Under the pieces are notes generated by a model. It saw only the letters and a list, made by a program, of their open reading frames with translations, was not told the origin of the DNA and did no database searches. The position numbers and the translations under genes were made by a program. Shown here piece by piece: positions 2,873 through 13,266 of a stretch of DNA of 38,122 nucleotides (the first letter of the stretch is position 1; each line of letters begins with the position of its first letter). Origin of the DNA: Gemmatimonadota bacterium. GTDB lineage: Bacteria > Gemmatimonadota > Gemmatimonadetes > Longimicrobiales > RSA9. The stretch is taken from the NCBI GenBank assembly GCA_019347975.1, contig JAHWKI010000004.1:3879-42000 (forward strand), read 5' to 3'.

Positions 2873-5443
2873 ATGAAGCTCAGCCGCAGATCACCGACCC
2901 CGCTCCTCACGTCCGTGCTCCTTGCCCTGGTCGGGTTCGGGCCGCTGGCGGGCCAGGCCGGGGACGCGGCGGAGCATGACGCACGGCCGGTGGCCGTGGC
3001 GGTGCGGGCGGAGGGGCCGATCCGGGTGGACGGGCGGCTGGACGAGGGCGTGTGGGACCGGCCGGCGGCGGTGGACGGCTTCACGCAGATCGATCCGGAC
3101 GAGGGGGCGCCGAGCACGCAGCGCACGCGGGTCTGGGTGCTGTACGACGACGACGCGCTCTACATCGGCGCGCGGCTGGACGATGAGGGGGAGGTGATCG
3201 GCCGGCTGGGTCGCCGGGACATGAGCCTCGGGGACAGCGACTGGTTCGGGGTGATGCTGGACAGCTACCACGACCACCGCACCGCGTTCGGGTTCGACGT
3301 GAACCCCGCGGGTGTGAAGCGGGACGAGGTGAAGGTGATCGAGTCGGATGACAATTCGTGGGACCCGGTGTGGGACGTGGCGACGACGGTGGACGAGGGC
3401 GGGTGGACCGTGGAATACAGGATCCCGTTCAGCCAGCTCCGGTTCAGCGCAGCGGAATCGCAGACGTGGGGTGTGCAGTTCGAGCGGATGATCGGCCGGC
3501 GGCGGGAGTACTCCGTGTCGACGTTCATCCCCAAGAGCGCGCAGGGTGGCGTCCCGGGATACGGGCACCTGACGGGGCTGGAGCGGATCGAGCCGGGTCG
3601 CCGGCTGGAGGTGCTGCCGTACGTCGTCGCCCGGAGCGAGCACGTGGACCCGGGGCCGAACCCGTTCCGCACGAGCTCGGAGCAGGGGGCATCGGCGGGC
3701 GTGGACCTGAAGTACCGCGTCACGTCCAACCTGACCCTGGACGCGACGATCAACCCGGATTTCGGACAGGTCGAGGTGGACCCGGCGGTGATCAACCTCG
3801 GGGTGTACGAGACGCGCTTCGACGAGAAGCGGCCGTTCTTCATCGAGGGGAGCGAGATCTTCGACCTGAACACCGGCGGCGGCGGCCAGCTCTTCTACAC
3901 GCGTCGCGTGGGCCGCACGCCGCAGGTCTATCCGCCGAGTCCGCTCGCGGACGTCCCGGCCGCCACCACGATCCTGGGCGCGGCCAAGCTGTCGGGGCGC
4001 TCCGGCGGCGGCTGGTCGGTGGGGATGCTGGAAGCGCTCACGGCCGAGGAGACCGCGCGCTACCGGGTCGCCCCCGGTGGAGAGGACCTGGAGCTCGCGG
4101 CCGAGCCGCTCACCAACTACTTCGTGGGACGGGCGCGGCGGGACCTGCGGGGCGGAGCCAGCGCGGTGGGCGGGCTGGTCACGGCCGTGAACCGGATGAT
4201 GGACGAGCCGGCCGCGGAGGCCTCGCTCCACTCGGCCGCGTACGCGGGGGCGGTGGACTTCCGGCATGACTGGGACCGCCGGCGGTGGTCGCTCACGGGC
4301 GCGCTCACGGTCAGCCACGTCGCCGGAAGCCCCGAGGCGATCACGCGGACGCAGCGGCTGCCGAATCATTACTTCCAGCGGCCGGATGCCGACCATCTGG
4401 ACGTGGACCCGACGGCGACCAGCCTGACGGGGGCATCGGCCTGGGCGCGGGTGGCGCGGCAGGCGGGCGAGCACTGGATCGGCAGCCTCATGGTGGCCAC
4501 GACCACGCCGGAGTACGAGATCAACGACCTGGGGTTCAACTACCGGACGGACCGGCGCGACGCGCAGGCCAACCTGCGCTACCGGGAGAACCAGCCCGGC
4601 GAGGTACTGCGCAACTGGTACATCGACGGGACGGCCCGCTTCGAGGGGAACTGGGACGACCAGCTCATCGCCAACTGGCTCACGCTGGGCGCGTCCGCGC
4701 AGACGCTCGACTACGTCTCCCTCTTCGGCCTGGTCAGCCACTCCCTCCGCGCATACGACGACCGGCTCACCCGCGGCGGGCCCATCGCCGTGAGGCCGGC
4801 GTCCAGCAGCGGCATGCTCCACGTCTCCTCCGATGGCCGGAAGCCGATCCAGGTGATCGGGATGCTGCGCGGGGAGCGGGACGAGTTCGACGGCTGGGGG
4901 CTCGTCGCGAACGCGGCCGTCCGCTGGCGCCCGTCCTCGAGCTGGAGCCTCGGCGTAGGGCCGCGCTTCAGCCGCAACTCGGTCGTGGCGCAGTACGTCA
5001 CCACGGTCCCCGACCCGGCGTACACCGAGACCTACGGCGCCCGCTACATCTTCGCGCCCCTCGACTTCACCGAGCTGGGCCTCGAGACGCGCCTGGACAT
5101 GGCGGTCTCCCCCACCCTGTCCATGGCGCTCTACGCCCAGCCCCTCCTCTCGAGCGGCGACTACGGCGACGCGATGTACCTCGAGAGGCCCGCCACGTAC
5201 GACTTCGCCCCCTACGCCGGCGACGCGCCCGACCGGGACTTCAACGTTCGGAGCCTGCGGGGGAACGCCGTGCTGCGCTGGGAGTGGCGGCGGGGCAGCA
5301 CGCTGTATGTCGCCTGGCAGCAGGCGCGGGAGGGGTACGAGCCGGTGGGCGACTTCCGCTTCCGCCGCGACGCCGACGCGCTGATCGATACGCAGCCGGA
5401 CAACATCTTCGTGGTGAAGGTCAATTACTGGCTGAACCCGTAG
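2873..5443 (+). CDS. DUF5916 / CBM9-like domain outer-membrane-associated protein
   Basis: Signal peptide, then IRVDGRLDEGVWDRPAAVDGFTQIDPDEGAPSTQRTRVWVLYDDDALYIGARLDD (CBM9-like) and a long beta-rich C-terminus with ...NPDFGQVEVDPAVINLGVYETRFDEKRPFFIEGSEIF, typical of DUF5916. Confidence 0.88.
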   Translation: MKLSRRSPTPLLTSVLLALVGFGPLAGQAGDAAEHDARPVAVAVRAEGPIRVDGRLDEGVWDRPAAVDGFTQIDPDEGAPSTQRTRVWVLYDDDALYIGARLDDEGEVIGRLGRRDMSLGDSDWFGVMLDSYHDHRTAFGFDVNPAGVKRDEVKVIESDDNSWDPVWDVATTVDEGGWTVEYRIPFSQLRFSAAESQTWGVQFERMIGRRREYSVSTFIPKSAQGGVPGYGHLTGLERIEPGRRLEVLPYVVARSEHVDPGPNPFRTSSEQGASAGVDLKYRVTSNLTLDATINPDFGQVEVDPAVINLGVYETRFDEKRPFFIEGSEIFDLNTGGGGQLFYTRRVGRTPQVYPPSPLADVPAATTILGAAKLSGRSGGGWSVGMLEALTAEETARYRVAPGGEDLELAAEPLTNYFVGRARRDLRGGASAVGGLVTAVNRMMDEPAAEASLHSAAYAGAVDFRHDWDRRRWSLTGALTVSHVAGSPEAITRTQRLPNHYFQRPDADHLDVDPTATSLTGASAWARVARQAGEHWIGSLMVATTTPEYEINDLGFNYRTDRRDAQANLRYRENQPGEVLRNWYIDGTARFEGNWDDQLIANWLTLGASAQTLDYVSLFGLVSHSLRAYDDRLTRGGPIAVRPASSSGMLHVSSDGRKPIQVIGMLRGERDEFDGWGLVANAAVRWRPSSSWSLGVGPRFSRNSVVAQYVTTVPDPAYTETYGARYIFAPLDFTELGLETRLDMAVSPTLSMALYAQPLLSSGDYGDAMYLERPATYDFAPYAGDAPDRDFNVRSLRGNAVLRWEWRRGSTLYVAWQQAREGYEPVGDFRFRRDADALIDTQPDNIFVVKVNYWLNP

Positions 5444-7892: not shown

Positions 7893-8869
7893 GGCAGCGT
7901 CTCCCGCACGAGACGAGCGTGCTCGATGCCCTCTGACGCCATGATCACCGCCAGCCGGAGGAGGAATCCGCCCACCAGGACCAGCACCGCGGACGCGACC
8001 TTGCGCTCCGCCGAGAGGCGGGCCAGCCAGACGCCCCTCCGGCCGGCGTCGCGGCGGCCGTACGCATCGAACCACCGGGGGCGCCAGTGGAGGGCGAGCG
8101 GGACGAGGATACCGGCCAGGACCACGCCCACGAGCAGCACGGCGCCCCACCACCCGAGCCAGGCGTCGATGGCGGCGCCCAGGGTGGCGAGGAAGGCGAT
8201 CAGCACCAGGAGCTCGAAGACGAGCACCGCGGCATCGAAGCTGGAGAGCCACTCGATGGTGGCGGTGTGGAAGCGTCGGCGGCCCACGAGGATGAGCGTG
8301 GCGGCGGCGGTGGAGGCGGCGGAGGCAATGAAGAGCATGCCCAGCATCGGGCTGTCGGCCCAGACGGGACGGTTCGTCACCGTCAGGAGCACGCCCGTGT
8401 ATCCGGCGACGAAGAACCCGAAGAAGCCGCCGAGCGCCACCAGCGCCTTCCAGAAGGGGCCGCGGTTGAGCCACGGGAAGGGGCGCAGGCCGAACCGCCT
8501 CTCCGCGGCCGCGGCCCCCAGGGCCGACGCGGTGGCGATGGCGCCGAAGCCCATGAGCCCCCAAGCGCCGAAGGAGATGGGCGAGTAGGACTTGAACGCG
8601 AGCCGGGGGAGATCCTGGTTCAGGAAGAGCATGTGCCAGAAGCGCTCCGGCCGCCCCAGGTCCAGGATCAGCAGGATGCCGCCGATCACGGCGCCGATGG
8701 TGGCGATGTAGAACCCCGCGTGGATCACGGGCCGATCCTCGGCCCGGCCGAACCAGACCAGCAGCGCCGAGATGAAGTACGCCCCGCCGGCGATGCCGCC
8801 GATGAAGAAGTACGGCACGATCCACCAGGTCCAGTCGGGGGCGGCGCTGAAGTAGGTGTCGGGGATCAC
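7889..8869 (-). CDS. nrfD: NrfD/PsrC-family membrane subunit (quinone-interacting anchor)
   Basis: Polytopic; MIPDTYFSAAPDWTWWIVPYFFIGGIAGGAYFISALLVWFGR... typical NrfD N-terminus; overlaps fdhB end by 4 nt. Confidence 0.9.
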   Translation of the reverse strand: MIPDTYFSAAPDWTWWIVPYFFIGGIAGGAYFISALLVWFGRAEDRPVIHAGFYIATIGAVIGGILLILDLGRPERFWHMLFLNQDLPRLAFKSYSPISFGAWGLMGFGAIATASALGAAAAERRFGLRPFPWLNRGPFWKALVALGGFFGFFVAGYTGVLLTVTNRPVWADSPMLGMLFIASAASTAAATLILVGRRRFHTATIEWLSSFDAAVLVFELLVLIAFLATLGAAIDAWLGWWGAVLLVGVVLAGILVPLALHWRPRWFDAYGRRDAGRRGVWLARLSAERKVASAVLVLVGGFLLRLAVIMASEGIEHARLVRETLP

Positions 8870-9684
8870 GGCTCGCCCTCCGCCGGCACCGCCGGCTCGG
8901 AGGCGAGCTCGTCCATGCGGCGCTTGCGGAGCCCGACCACTCCCAGGATCGCCAGGACGGCGGCGCCCACCGCGCCGAAGAAGGAGCTGCCGGCCAGGCG
9001 GGCGCTCGGGAGCTCCGGCTCACGGGGCAGCCCGTACACGTGGGGATCATCCACCAGCAGGAAGAAGGCGTTCAGGCCGCCCAGCGGCCCGTCGGGGTCG
9101 GCACCGTACAGGTAGGCGTCCTCCTGCCCGTCGGCGTGGAGCTGCCGCACCCGCCCGCGCGCCCGTTCCCGCAGCTCCGCCACGGTCCCGAACTGGATGG
9201 AGTCGGTGGGGCACGCCTTGGAGCACGCGGGCTCGAGCCCTTCGCTGATGCGGTCGTAGCACAGCGTGCACTTCTGCGCGGTGCCCGCCACCGGGTTCAC
9301 GTCGATGACGCCGAATGGGCACGCGGCGATGCACGCCCGACAGCCGTTGCACACGTCCGACTGGATGACCACCGTGTCGAACTCCGTCCGTATGATCGCG
9401 CCGGTGGGGCAGACCTCGAGACAGCCGGCCTGGACGCAGTGCTTGCAGACGTCGCTCATCATGAGCCACCGCCCGTCGTAGGGCTGGTCGAACTGCTCGA
9501 TGAACGCGACGTGGCGCCAGTGGATTCCGTCGAGCTTCGCCGTGTTGTCGTAGCTCAGGCCGGTGAGCTGGGGGGCGCCGCCGTCGCGCGCCGGGAGCTG
9601 GTTCCAGCTCTTGCAGGCGACTTCGCACGCCTTGCACCCGATGCAGATCGTGGTGTCGGTGAAGAACCCCATCGCTTCCGCCAT
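8866..9684 (-). CDS. fdhB: Formate dehydrogenase iron-sulfur subunit (4Fe-4S dicluster, C-terminal TM helix)
   Basis: CIGCKACEVACKSWNQ, CKHCVQAGCLEVCPTGAI, CNGCRACIAACPFGVIDV, CTLCYDRISEGLEPACSKACPTDSI; C-terminal TM SSFFGAVGAAVLAILGVVGLRKRR. Confidence 0.94.
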   Translation of the reverse strand: MAEAMGFFTDTTICIGCKACEVACKSWNQLPARDGGAPQLTGLSYDNTAKLDGIHWRHVAFIEQFDQPYDGRWLMMSDVCKHCVQAGCLEVCPTGAIIRTEFDTVVIQSDVCNGCRACIAACPFGVIDVNPVAGTAQKCTLCYDRISEGLEPACSKACPTDSIQFGTVAELRERARGRVRQLHADGQEDAYLYGADPDGPLGGLNAFFLLVDDPHVYGLPREPELPSARLAGSSFFGAVGAAVLAILGVVGLRKRRMDELASEPAVPAEGEP

Positions 9685-9718
9685 GCCCGTCCGTCCCCCT
9701 GCGTCCTGTTTGTTCCTC

Positions 9719-9834
9719 GCGTCTAGGCGTCTAGGCGTCTAGGCGTTTAGGCGTTTAGGCGTCACGCCCCAACGCCCTAACGCCCTAACGCCCCAACGCC
9801 CCAACGCCCCAACGCCCTAACGCCCTAACGCCCC
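9719..9834. repeat. Two octamer tandem arrays in opposite orientation: (GCGTYTAG)x5 at 9719-9758 and (AACGCCCY)x8 at 9771-9834; G-run-rich on the minus (mRNA-sense) strand
   Basis: Direct reading. Minus strand 9842->9767 contains 10 runs of >=3 G separated mostly by 4-5 nt loops (CGTT/CGTTA). Confidence 0.93.
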
Positions 9835-9850
9835 AGCCGCCCAGCCGCCA

Positions 9851-12800
9851 TCACGCCTTCTCCACCTCGCAGACGAATGCCTTCCCCTCATGAATCGACA
9901 CGTTCGGATCGCCCACCAGCGCGGTGAGGGTGTTGACGACATCGCCCCGCACCAGCCCCATCCACCCCCAGTGCCACGGCATCCCCACGTGGTGGATGCG
10001 ACGGCCGTCGATCATCATCGCGCCGATCCGGTCCGTCACCAGCGCCCTGGCCCGGATGCTCCCCCGCGGCGTGCTGATCCGCACCATGTCCAGGCTGTCG
10101 ATCCCCTTCTCCGCGGCCAGCTCCGTGCCCAGCTCGATGAACAGCTCCGGCTGGAGCTCGCTGAGCCACGGCAGCCACCGGCTCATCGCGCCGGCCAGGT
10201 AGTGCTCCGTCAGCCGGTAGGTCGTGATCACGTGCGGGTAGCGCGGGTCTCCCACGCTCGCCAGCGCGTTGTCCGCCTCCCCCCGCCGCCAGAACTTGAA
10301 TACCGGGCTGCTCTGCTGCCCGGCGTAGATGGGGTTCCGTACGGGCGACTCCGCCGGCTCGTAGTGCGTCGGCAGCGGCCCGTCGGCCAGGCCCTTGGCC
10401 ACGTAGAGCCATCCCTTCCCGTCGCTCATCATGATGAACGGGTCGGTCCCGGACAGGGCGTCGAGGCCGATCCCGCCGGGATCGGCGGCGGCGCCCGGCG
10501 CCTTGGTGAGGGCGAAGTCCGGGACGTCGTAGCCGACCCAGCGACCCTCGCTCTCGTCCCACCACACCCACCGCTTCCGCTCGCTCCACGGCCGGCCCGA
10601 CGGGTCGGCGGAGGCGCGGTTGTAGAGGACGCGCCGGTTCGCGGGCCAGGCCCACCCCCACCCCAGGTGCGCGCCCGGGACGCCCGGCGGGTCGGGGCTC
10701 CGGTTGGCCGTGAGGTTCTCGTGAGGCGAAGGGTAGCAGCCGCAGTAGATCCAGGACGCGCAGGTGGTGGAGCCGTCGGCCGCCAGCTCGGCGAAGCCGG
10801 TGAGGTGCCGGTCCGGAGCGCCGGTGTGGTAGCCGTTGATCTCCCGCAGCATCTTCTCCGCGCTCGGCTCCCCCGGCGGGCTGATGGGCTCGTCGGGGTC
10901 GAAGTCCCAGGTCAGGTTGCGGATCCCCTGGTCGCGGGGGAGGAGGCTGTCGGCGTACATGGCCTTGAGCCGCTTCGCCAGCTGGTGGTAGAACCAGGTG
11001 TCGGTCCGACAGTCCCCCGGCGGGTCCTTGGCCTTGTAGTGCCACTGCAGCATGCGCTGCGTGTTGGTGAAGCTTCCGTCGTACTCGGCGATCTGGGTGG
11101 ACGGGAAGAAGAAGACCTCCGTCTCGATGTCCTCCGCGCCCACCTCCCCCGACTCCACCTCCGGCGCGGCGTACCAGTACGTGGCCGTCTCCGTCAGCCA
11201 GTTGTCCTTCACGACGAGCCACTTCAGCTTCCGCAGCCCTTCCCGCTCCACCGTCGCGTTCAGCGACGTGGCGGGGTTCTGGCCCACGCAGAACATCCCC
11301 TCGACCTTGCCGTCCGCCATGGCCGAGAACGTGGCCATGTGGGAATGGTCGCCCAGGATCTTCGGGTGCCAGTCCCAGCCGAAGTCGTTCTCCGGCGTGG
11401 CGGCATCCCCGTACATGGACTTCAGGTAGGAGACCAGGAACTTGGGCTTGTTGGCCCAGTACCCGGACGCGGGGGTCTCCTCCGCCAGGTAGCTCCGGAG
11501 CGTTTCGTGCGGCTTCCGCACCGAGGGCGCGGACATGTAGCCGTGGATGGAGTGATAGAGCGTGGGCACGTCCGTGGAGCCCTGGATCGCCGCGTGGCCC
11601 CGGAGCGCCATGATCCCGCCGCCCGGCCGGCCGAAGTTGCCCAGCAGGAGCTGGAGCAGCGCGCAGCAGCCGATGGTCTGCACGCCGTTCGTGTGCTGCG
11701 TCCACGCCACCGCGTACGCGAACGCCGTGGTGCGGTCCGGACCCGAGTTCTCGAGGATGGCGTCGGCCACCGCGAGGAACTTCTCCCGCGGGCAGCCGGT
11801 CACCCGCTCCACCATCTCGGGCGTGTAGCGGGAGAAGTGGCGCTTCACCAGCTGGAAGACGGTGCGGGGGTGCTCCAGCGTCGGGTCCGTCATGGGGGCG
11901 GGCGGCCGGCCGGCACGCAGCATGGCCTCGAAGCCGCCATCGGAATCAACCTCCCCGGACATGATGGTCTCGGCGGGCCGGCCCACGGAGTAGTCCGGGC
12001 TCTCGCTCCGGCCCGCGTACTGCCAGCTCCGGTCATCGTACTCGCCCAGGAACGCATCGTAGTCCCACACGCCCTCGTCCCGGTACTCCATCAGCCCGGA
12101 GAATACGCCGTCCAGGTCCTCCGTGTCCTCGAACTCCTCGCCGATGAGCGTGGCGGCGTTGGTGTAGGTCGCGACGTACTCACGGAAGAACGGCTCGCGG
12201 TTCCACCGGTCGCTCGCGAGGACGTGGTTGATGAGCCCGCCCAGGAACGCGATGTCGCTCCCCGCCCGGATCGGTGCGTGGATGTCGCACGTGGCGCTGG
12301 TGCGGGTGAAGCGCGGGTCCACGTGGATGAGCGTCGCGCCGTTCATCTTCGCCCGCATGGGCCACCGGTAGGCCACGGGATGGCACTCGGCCATGTTGGA
12401 GCCCATGACGACGAAGCAGTCGCTGTGCTCCAGATTGCGCGGGTAGGTGGTGGCGGCTCCGCGCCCGAGACGTGACCCCAGACCGGGGACGCTAGCGCTG
12501 TGTCATATGCGGGCCTGGTTCTCGATGGGCACCACCCCCATCCCCCGCATCAGCTTCTGCGCGATGTGGTTGAACTCGTTGTCCAGTGTGGCCCCGCCCA
12601 GCGCGAAGACCGACGTCGTGCACATGGCCCGCTTCCCGTCCGGCAGCATCTCGATGAACGTGTCGTCCCGGGTCTCGCCGAACAGCTCGGCGACGCGGTC
12701 CATGGCCCGCTCCAGGTCCCACTCCTCCCACTCCCTCGCCCCGGGCTCCCGGTGCAGCACCTTCGTCGGCCGGTTCGGGTTGTAGTGCAGCTGGTAGATC

Positions 12801-13078
12801 GCCGCGCCCTTCGGGCAGAGCGTCCCGGCATTGTGGGGGCTGCGTGGGTCACCCTCGATGTTCACGATCTCGCCGTCCTTCACGTGGATCAGCGTCGCGC
12901 ACCCCACGGAGCAGAACGGACAGATGCTGGGCACCGTCGTCGTGTCCCGGATCCGCAGCTCCTGCGCACGCGCCCGCGCCGGCCCCAGGTTGGCGCCGAG
13001 ACCGACCAGCCCGCCCAGCGCGGTGGCCGTGCCCGCACCCGTCGACACCCGCAGGAACTCCCGTCGCGTAACGCTCAT
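9851..13078 (-). CDS. fdhA: Formate dehydrogenase catalytic subunit, TAT-exported selenoprotein (Sec at codon 192, UGA at 12503-12505)
   Basis: ORFs 12503..13213(-) and 9851..12406(-) are in one frame (3228 nt = 1076 codons incl. stop), separated only by one TGA. Translation across it: ...MGVVPIENQARI-U-HSASVPGLGSRLGRGAATTYPRNLEHSDCFVVMGSNMAECHPVAYRWPMRAK, matching the FdnG/FdoG pattern NQARx-U-H......GRGA..N...; TAT motif TRREFLRV at the N-terminus; 4Fe-4S CPFCSVGC. Confidence 0.95.
12466..12505 (-). promoter_or_regulatory. Bacterial SECIS-like element directly after the Sec UGA
   Basis: UGA-CACAGCGCUAGCGUCCCC-GGUCU-GGGG: GGUCU apical loop (12484-12480) closed by CCCC (12488-12485)/GGGG (12479-12476), 18 nt after UGA, the same spacing and loop as recalled for E. 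coli fdhF SECIS. Confidence 0.88.
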
Positions 13079-13266
13079 CCGGGCCTCCGGAAAAGAAACG
13101 GGCGGCCGCCATGGGAATGGCGCCGCCCCGTCGCGCACGGCCGCCCGCCGCTGCGGGTGAGGCCGGTCTGTTGTCCGAATTGATTCCACCAGTAATGGCG
13201 AGCGGGCGGCCACGCAAGCTCCGCGCGCGACGCCGCCTCGGCGTCGGAGAACGAGTCGACTTCCTT

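Follow-up and report, generated by a model that had tools for sequence, protein, structure and literature searches.

Does the pair of facing octamer arrays in the gap between an fdhA-like and an fdhB-like gene of a Gemmatimonadota bacterium belong to this operon, as a device that sets the output of its two genes, or is it one copy of something that the genome carries elsewhere? The window, the whole 38,122-nucleotide stretch that was analysed, is 3879–42000 of contig C129 in a 3.6 Mb draft genome (G000) of 360 contigs that is 87% complete. The closest homologues of its fdhB lie in soil Gemmatimonadetes MAGs.

The arrays between fdhA and fdhB

The two genes and the elements between them are laid out as follows, in window coordinates.

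8866–9684, minus strand: fdhB-like iron-sulfur subunit, 272 aa (Pfam Fer4_11, 1.3e-24; Fer4_7, 4.3e-16)
9678–9684, minus strand: ATGGCGG where fdhB now starts, the second member of a 7-bp direct repeat (sequence)
9685–9718, minus strand: spacer from the array to fdhB (sequence and inference)
9719–9763, plus strand: first array, GCGTYTAG x5.6, whose mRNA-strand 3' arm is CTAAACGC/CTAGACGC (Tandem Repeats Finder)
9764–9835, plus strand: second, facing array, ACGCCCYA x9, whose mRNA-strand 5' arm is GGGCGTTR (Tandem Repeats Finder)
9832–9849, plus strand: degenerate octamers CCCAGCCG x2.2, extending the array to the fdhA stop codon (Tandem Repeats Finder, period 8; sequence)
9845–9851, minus strand: ATGGCGG overlapping the fdhA stop (TGATGGCGG) (sequence)
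9851–13213, minus strand: fdhA-like molybdopterin subunit, stop at 9851–9853 (Pfam Molybdop_Fe4S4, Molybdopterin, Molydop_binding)

To judge by its sequence, the fdhA-like gene is that of a selenocysteine formate dehydrogenase. It has an in-frame TGA at 12503–12505 (minus strand), in the translated context ENQARI*HS, and this TGA is kept in most of the readable relatives.

The gap from the fdhA stop to the fdhB start measures 166 nt (9685–9850) and is mostly filled by 5.6 and 9 facing octamer units. Tandem Repeats Finder gives the first array as GCGTCTAG x5.6 at period 8 with 94% matches and the second as ACGCCCCA x9.0, again at period 8, with 93% matches, which confirms the original prediction of facing octamer arrays in this gap; accurate too was its description of the mRNA (minus) strand, which carries ten G-runs of 3–4 with loops of mostly 4–5 nt. 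Identity at shift 8 is at least 85% in 60 windows of 45 nt, with a maximum of 0.97, and the highest value in 30 Markov surrogates is 0.65; among periods 5 to 14, none other than 8 exceeds 0.75 self-identity in the window. A chance origin of the period-8 arrays at fdh is excluded. Their exact unit number may be a product of assembly, because the draft has 360 contigs and such arrays lie at several contig ends. In the spacer, AGGGGGA at 9694–9700, 9 nt 5' of the fdhB ATG, resembles a Shine-Dalgarno sequence.

Hairpin and G-quadruplex in the transcript

Folded as RNA, the mRNA-sense strand of the gap reaches -87.8 kcal/mol, the value for 200 dinucleotide shuffles being -62.9 (sd 3.3). The model result is one long, near-continuous hairpin, in which the predicted stem consists of 7-bp helices in series with one single mismatch per octamer between helices, and G-U pairs bridge the differences between the two octamer words; the opposite strand folds to only -57.2 kcal/mol. 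The imperfect long hairpin proposed earlier for the RNA is thus supported by folding. Its proposed counterpart, the G-quadruplex, fares less well. With quadruplexes permitted the model reaches -90.0 kcal/mol, the long stem unchanged and the quadruplexes in the flanks, and for the arrays alone the fold does not change. Because the predicted hairpin survives when quadruplexes are allowed, the quadruplex reading is disfavoured for the RNA and was rejected as its main structure. The best G4Hunter score in the gap is 2.04, but many GC-rich places of the window also exceed 1.2.

A regulatory RNA element in the fdh operon, with a hairpin or G-quadruplex under selection for its control of the fdhA:fdhB ratio, would suit the site between two subunit genes, the presence of the ten G-runs and an mRNA-strand hairpin that the model makes 29 kcal/mol more stable than that of the other strand. 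This explanation is nevertheless unlikely, given that the feature is absent from all 15 relatives compared, that the same arrays stand at unrelated junctions, and that the folded main stem contains no G-quadruplex. A general preference for the sense strand is likewise missing from the six elements folded, for which the energies (sense/antisense, kcal/mol) are -82/-54 for the fdh arrays, -51/-82 for the element on contig C260, -92/-98 on C331, -32/-27 on C269, -27/-18 on C125 and -84/-83 on C258. Selection for a hairpin on the sense strand was accordingly rejected, and a common selected RNA function is argued against by the lack of consistent bias. As to other signals, no intrinsic terminator is found in 9550–10000, where the stem is without a following T run; no sigma-70-type promoter was found in the fdhA–fdhB gap, and a known structured RNA was rejected in the window for want of an Rfam match at gathering score.

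Dispersal in the genome and the junction in relatives

Searched with GGCGTNNNGGCGTNNNGGCGT, the whole draft genome returned 66 matches, against 5 for the reversed pattern. Arrays of the word GGCGTNNN occupy about 15 places, spread over 14 contigs (C9, C30, C40, C110, C125, C129, C179, C258, C260, C269, C300, C317 twice, C331 and C342), matches on C56 and C108 being omitted from this count as probable chance or coding. The true number of sites is probably higher, since four arrays are cut off by the end of a contig and another adjoins a stretch of N. All of the roughly 15 sites lie outside coding-like open reading frames under a GC3-based model; on C300 an open frame crosses the array only because the contig ends, the probable start codon being about 60 nt further in. 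Several arrays abut a gene end: the array touches or overlaps a stop codon at fdh and on C260, C317, C331 and C342, lies 6 nt past the stop on C258, and ends directly at a start codon on C260 and C317. Each of the six complete pairs (C129, C260, C269, C331, C125, C258) is convergent, the GCGT arm preceding the ACGC arm. When the sites of the genome are compared, the octamers are the only shared letters seen, with no common spacer or end sequence. A second octamer, CAGAACNN, gives 41 matches and none for its control, at about 18 places, one of which is the array of five AACAGAAC octamers at 2658–2697 of the window.

The fdh feature is, with reasonable probability, one copy of a dispersed, lineage-private intergenic repeat, built of tandem octamers with a GGCGT core and arranged in convergent pairs. 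The exact form GGCGTTNGGGCGTTNGGGCGTT has 23 matches in this genome and none in 149 other sampled genomes of the phylum. In all 15 relatives the distance from the fdhA stop to the following ATG is between -4 and +2 nt, with no insert at the junction. The block is therefore a lineage-specific gain that splits a junction at which the genes of the relatives overlap or lie within 2 nt of each other, and sequence comparison shows that it was gained at fdh since the split from the sampled relatives. The earlier proposal that the arrays act as a switch of the fdh operon in particular is not supported, given the same arrays at about 15 unrelated junctions, the outcome of the genome search for these octamers, and given relatives without an insert.

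Insertion of the whole block as a single unit is a possible origin. The block is flanked by a 7-bp direct repeat, ATGGCGG, at 9845–9851 and 9678–9684, a single case in GC-rich DNA. In the relative L049 the fdhA–fdhB junction is AAGGCGTGATGGCGGGCG, with the same ATGGCGG letters as at the fdhA stop here, and its letters AAGGCGTGATGGCGG are those that precede the array here. The repeat can be read as a target duplication or, just as well, as what is left of the native start codon together with a new start; the copy at 9845–9851 is thus possibly such a relic or the left copy of a 7-bp duplication. A MITE- or REPIN-like element that inserted between fdhA and fdhB with a 7-bp duplication of ATGGCGG, its arms growing later by slippage, would explain the empty site in relatives, the direct repeat on both sides of the block, the match between TGATGGCGG of the fdhA stop region and the native junction of L049, and the fixed convergent polarity. 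It could also draw on genus g13, where a multicopy core of about 190 bp sits between such arrays and Y1_Tnp genes occur in 8 of 10 genomes (none in G039; G049 lay outside the search). Such an origin is doubtful all the same: no Y1_Tnp gene (RAYT family, PF01797) was found in the 87% complete genome that carries the fdh copy, so that spread driven by RAYT was rejected, and the sites of this genome share octamers only, with no common spacer or ends.

For the favoured reading, a dispersed tandem repeat, a plausible course of events can be sketched. Replication slippage would alter array length, and the opposed arms may be extruded, as a single long hairpin where DNA or RNA is single-stranded or as a cruciform. 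At fdh, the hairpin would uncouple translation of fdhB from that of fdhA, whereas in relatives the stop and start codons overlap or touch; fdhB would then start from its own AGGGGGA. The stem may in addition, in the manner of REP hairpins, protect the fdhA mRNA against 3' exonucleases, and a shift in the A:B ratio could follow as a side effect.

Other words in other lineages and in described repeat systems

Arrays of period 7 to 10 are not common everywhere, given that Tandem Repeats Finder detects only four at the 80 loci around fdhB homologues. Where facing arrays do occur in relatives, their words, of 6–8 nt, are unrelated to the one at fdh. In the rpsN–rpsH gap the fdh genome has GGGCGTTA arrays facing ACGCC arrays, G003 has GGGATT/GGGAGT units opposite ACTCCC units, and G006 has CCAAGNG-type units opposite CTTGG units; in G009 and G001 the gap is short and without arrays. 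Beside the homologue of the C260 gene, G001 carries ACAGTTG-type heptamers opposite CAACTGT. When facing arrays were sought at every period, codon periodicity at 6 and 9 drowned the signal; confined to periods 7, 8, 10 and 11, the search yielded 9 inverted and 3 direct pairs, the sample being one in which such sites were enriched. Further pairs seen in relatives are GGGAAGA-type heptamers that face their complement on either side of about 11 copies of CGGCGAAT (L243 of G045, 9060–9285) and the facing hexamer arrays TACGTG and ACACGT, of about 12 and 7 copies (L199 of G001, 2942–3094). Directly 5' of rpsH, a hairpin CCTACAAGTCCGG ... CCGGATACTATAGGAG is conserved in L183 (about 1420–1500), L185, L188, L189 and L190 and is possibly an S8 autoregulation site; in L183, L185 and L189 it matches no Rfam family up to E 0.1.

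In genus g13 (family f3) there are hundreds of AGTGCGTG-type octamer arrays, surrounding a multicopy core of about 190 bp, and nearby array pairs in G027 are convergent in 5 of 5 cases among the matches listed. At L173–L176 of G027, facing octamers enclose the core TGTCATCCTGAG ... GAAGGATCTA and its inverse, about 190 bp, of which G027 and G025 hold dozens of copies. At one orthologous site the first arm has about 9 units in G027 and 2–3 in G025, and in G039 it is of a different word (GGGGAAC) with the second arm kept. Length and word thus both turn over, and complementarity of the arms is not always preserved. The suggestion of a hypervariable repeat gains support from this orthologous site, at which two species of another genus differ, with 9 and 2–3 units.

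The different words in the rpsN–rpsH gap of G000, G003 and G006, and the arm replaced by another word in G039, are also what would be expected of purely local slippage, in which a chance octamer is amplified in place at each junction, palindrome-guided strand switching yields the facing arm and nothing spreads. This is the least probable of the explanations considered, and very improbable in itself: for a single genome to have the same private word at about 15 junctions, and a second word, CAGAACNN, at about 18 places, spread or homogenisation between sites is required.

Lineage-typical tandem 7-mers of intergenic DNA are familiar from heterocystous cyanobacteria as STRR heptamers. The closest described system is that of the GGGAATC repeats of Xanthomonas; the fdh octamers are arranged in a similar way, with a different word and unit length. 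The Xanthomonas heptamers (GGGAATC/GGGANTN) form about 185 arrays and 70–75 convergent inverted pairs per genome (Rehm et al. 2015, PMC4692102). About 90% of these arrays are intergenic, near or overlapping stop codons, with lengths that vary between species, and G4-capable arrays coincide with the start or end of a transcript more often than controls do (PMC4692102). Common to both systems are a short G-rich tandem word, in two or more units, with a fixed core and variable letters, dispersal through the genome, an intergenic position and convergent pairs near stop codons (all six complete pairs here). The differences lie in the unit, 8 nt here (GGCGTNNN, core GGCGT) and 7 nt in GGGANTN; in number, about 15 sites against about 185 arrays; in the arms, which here often differ in their variable letters, and in relatives that use other words; and in the modelled fold, which here favours a hairpin over a G-quadruplex although the quadruplex motif is present. 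The TAACTGA heptamers of marine Beggiatoaceae are likewise a dispersed, mostly intergenic tandem word, but there the units, 2–6 to a set, run in the same direction, a single inverted case being the exception in the genome (PMC4679880), whereas facing pairs are usual here. REP/REPIN sequences with RAYT transposases (PMC3116915) share the intergenic position, the inverted arrangement, the capacity to form hairpins and the many copies per genome; the present repeat differs in its tandem octamers, which have no single palindromic consensus, in spacers that differ between sites, and in the lack of a detected Y1_Tnp gene. A literature search found no report of such repeats in Gemmatimonadetes, with subscription journals largely outside its coverage.

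Tentatively, tandem-word hairpins may form a class of their own in Gemmatimonadetes: the architecture, facing arrays at gene junctions, would be shared, and each lineage would have its own word of 6–8 letters, sometimes at the same junction as another lineage. This would imply a shared, undescribed process by which one word comes to be spread and homogenised within a genome and is exchanged for another between lineages. What appeared to be an operon-specific switch becomes one copy of a fast-changing genomic repeat, whose lineage-specific arrival split an fdhA–fdhB junction that is coupled in relatives; such arrays should consequently not be taken as conserved regulation of the adjoining gene. 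Lineage-private words and the reuse of gene gaps also make the origin, spread and turnover of intergenic tandem words testable through sister strains. Of wider interest is the lineage-specific turnover of words within a shared architecture.
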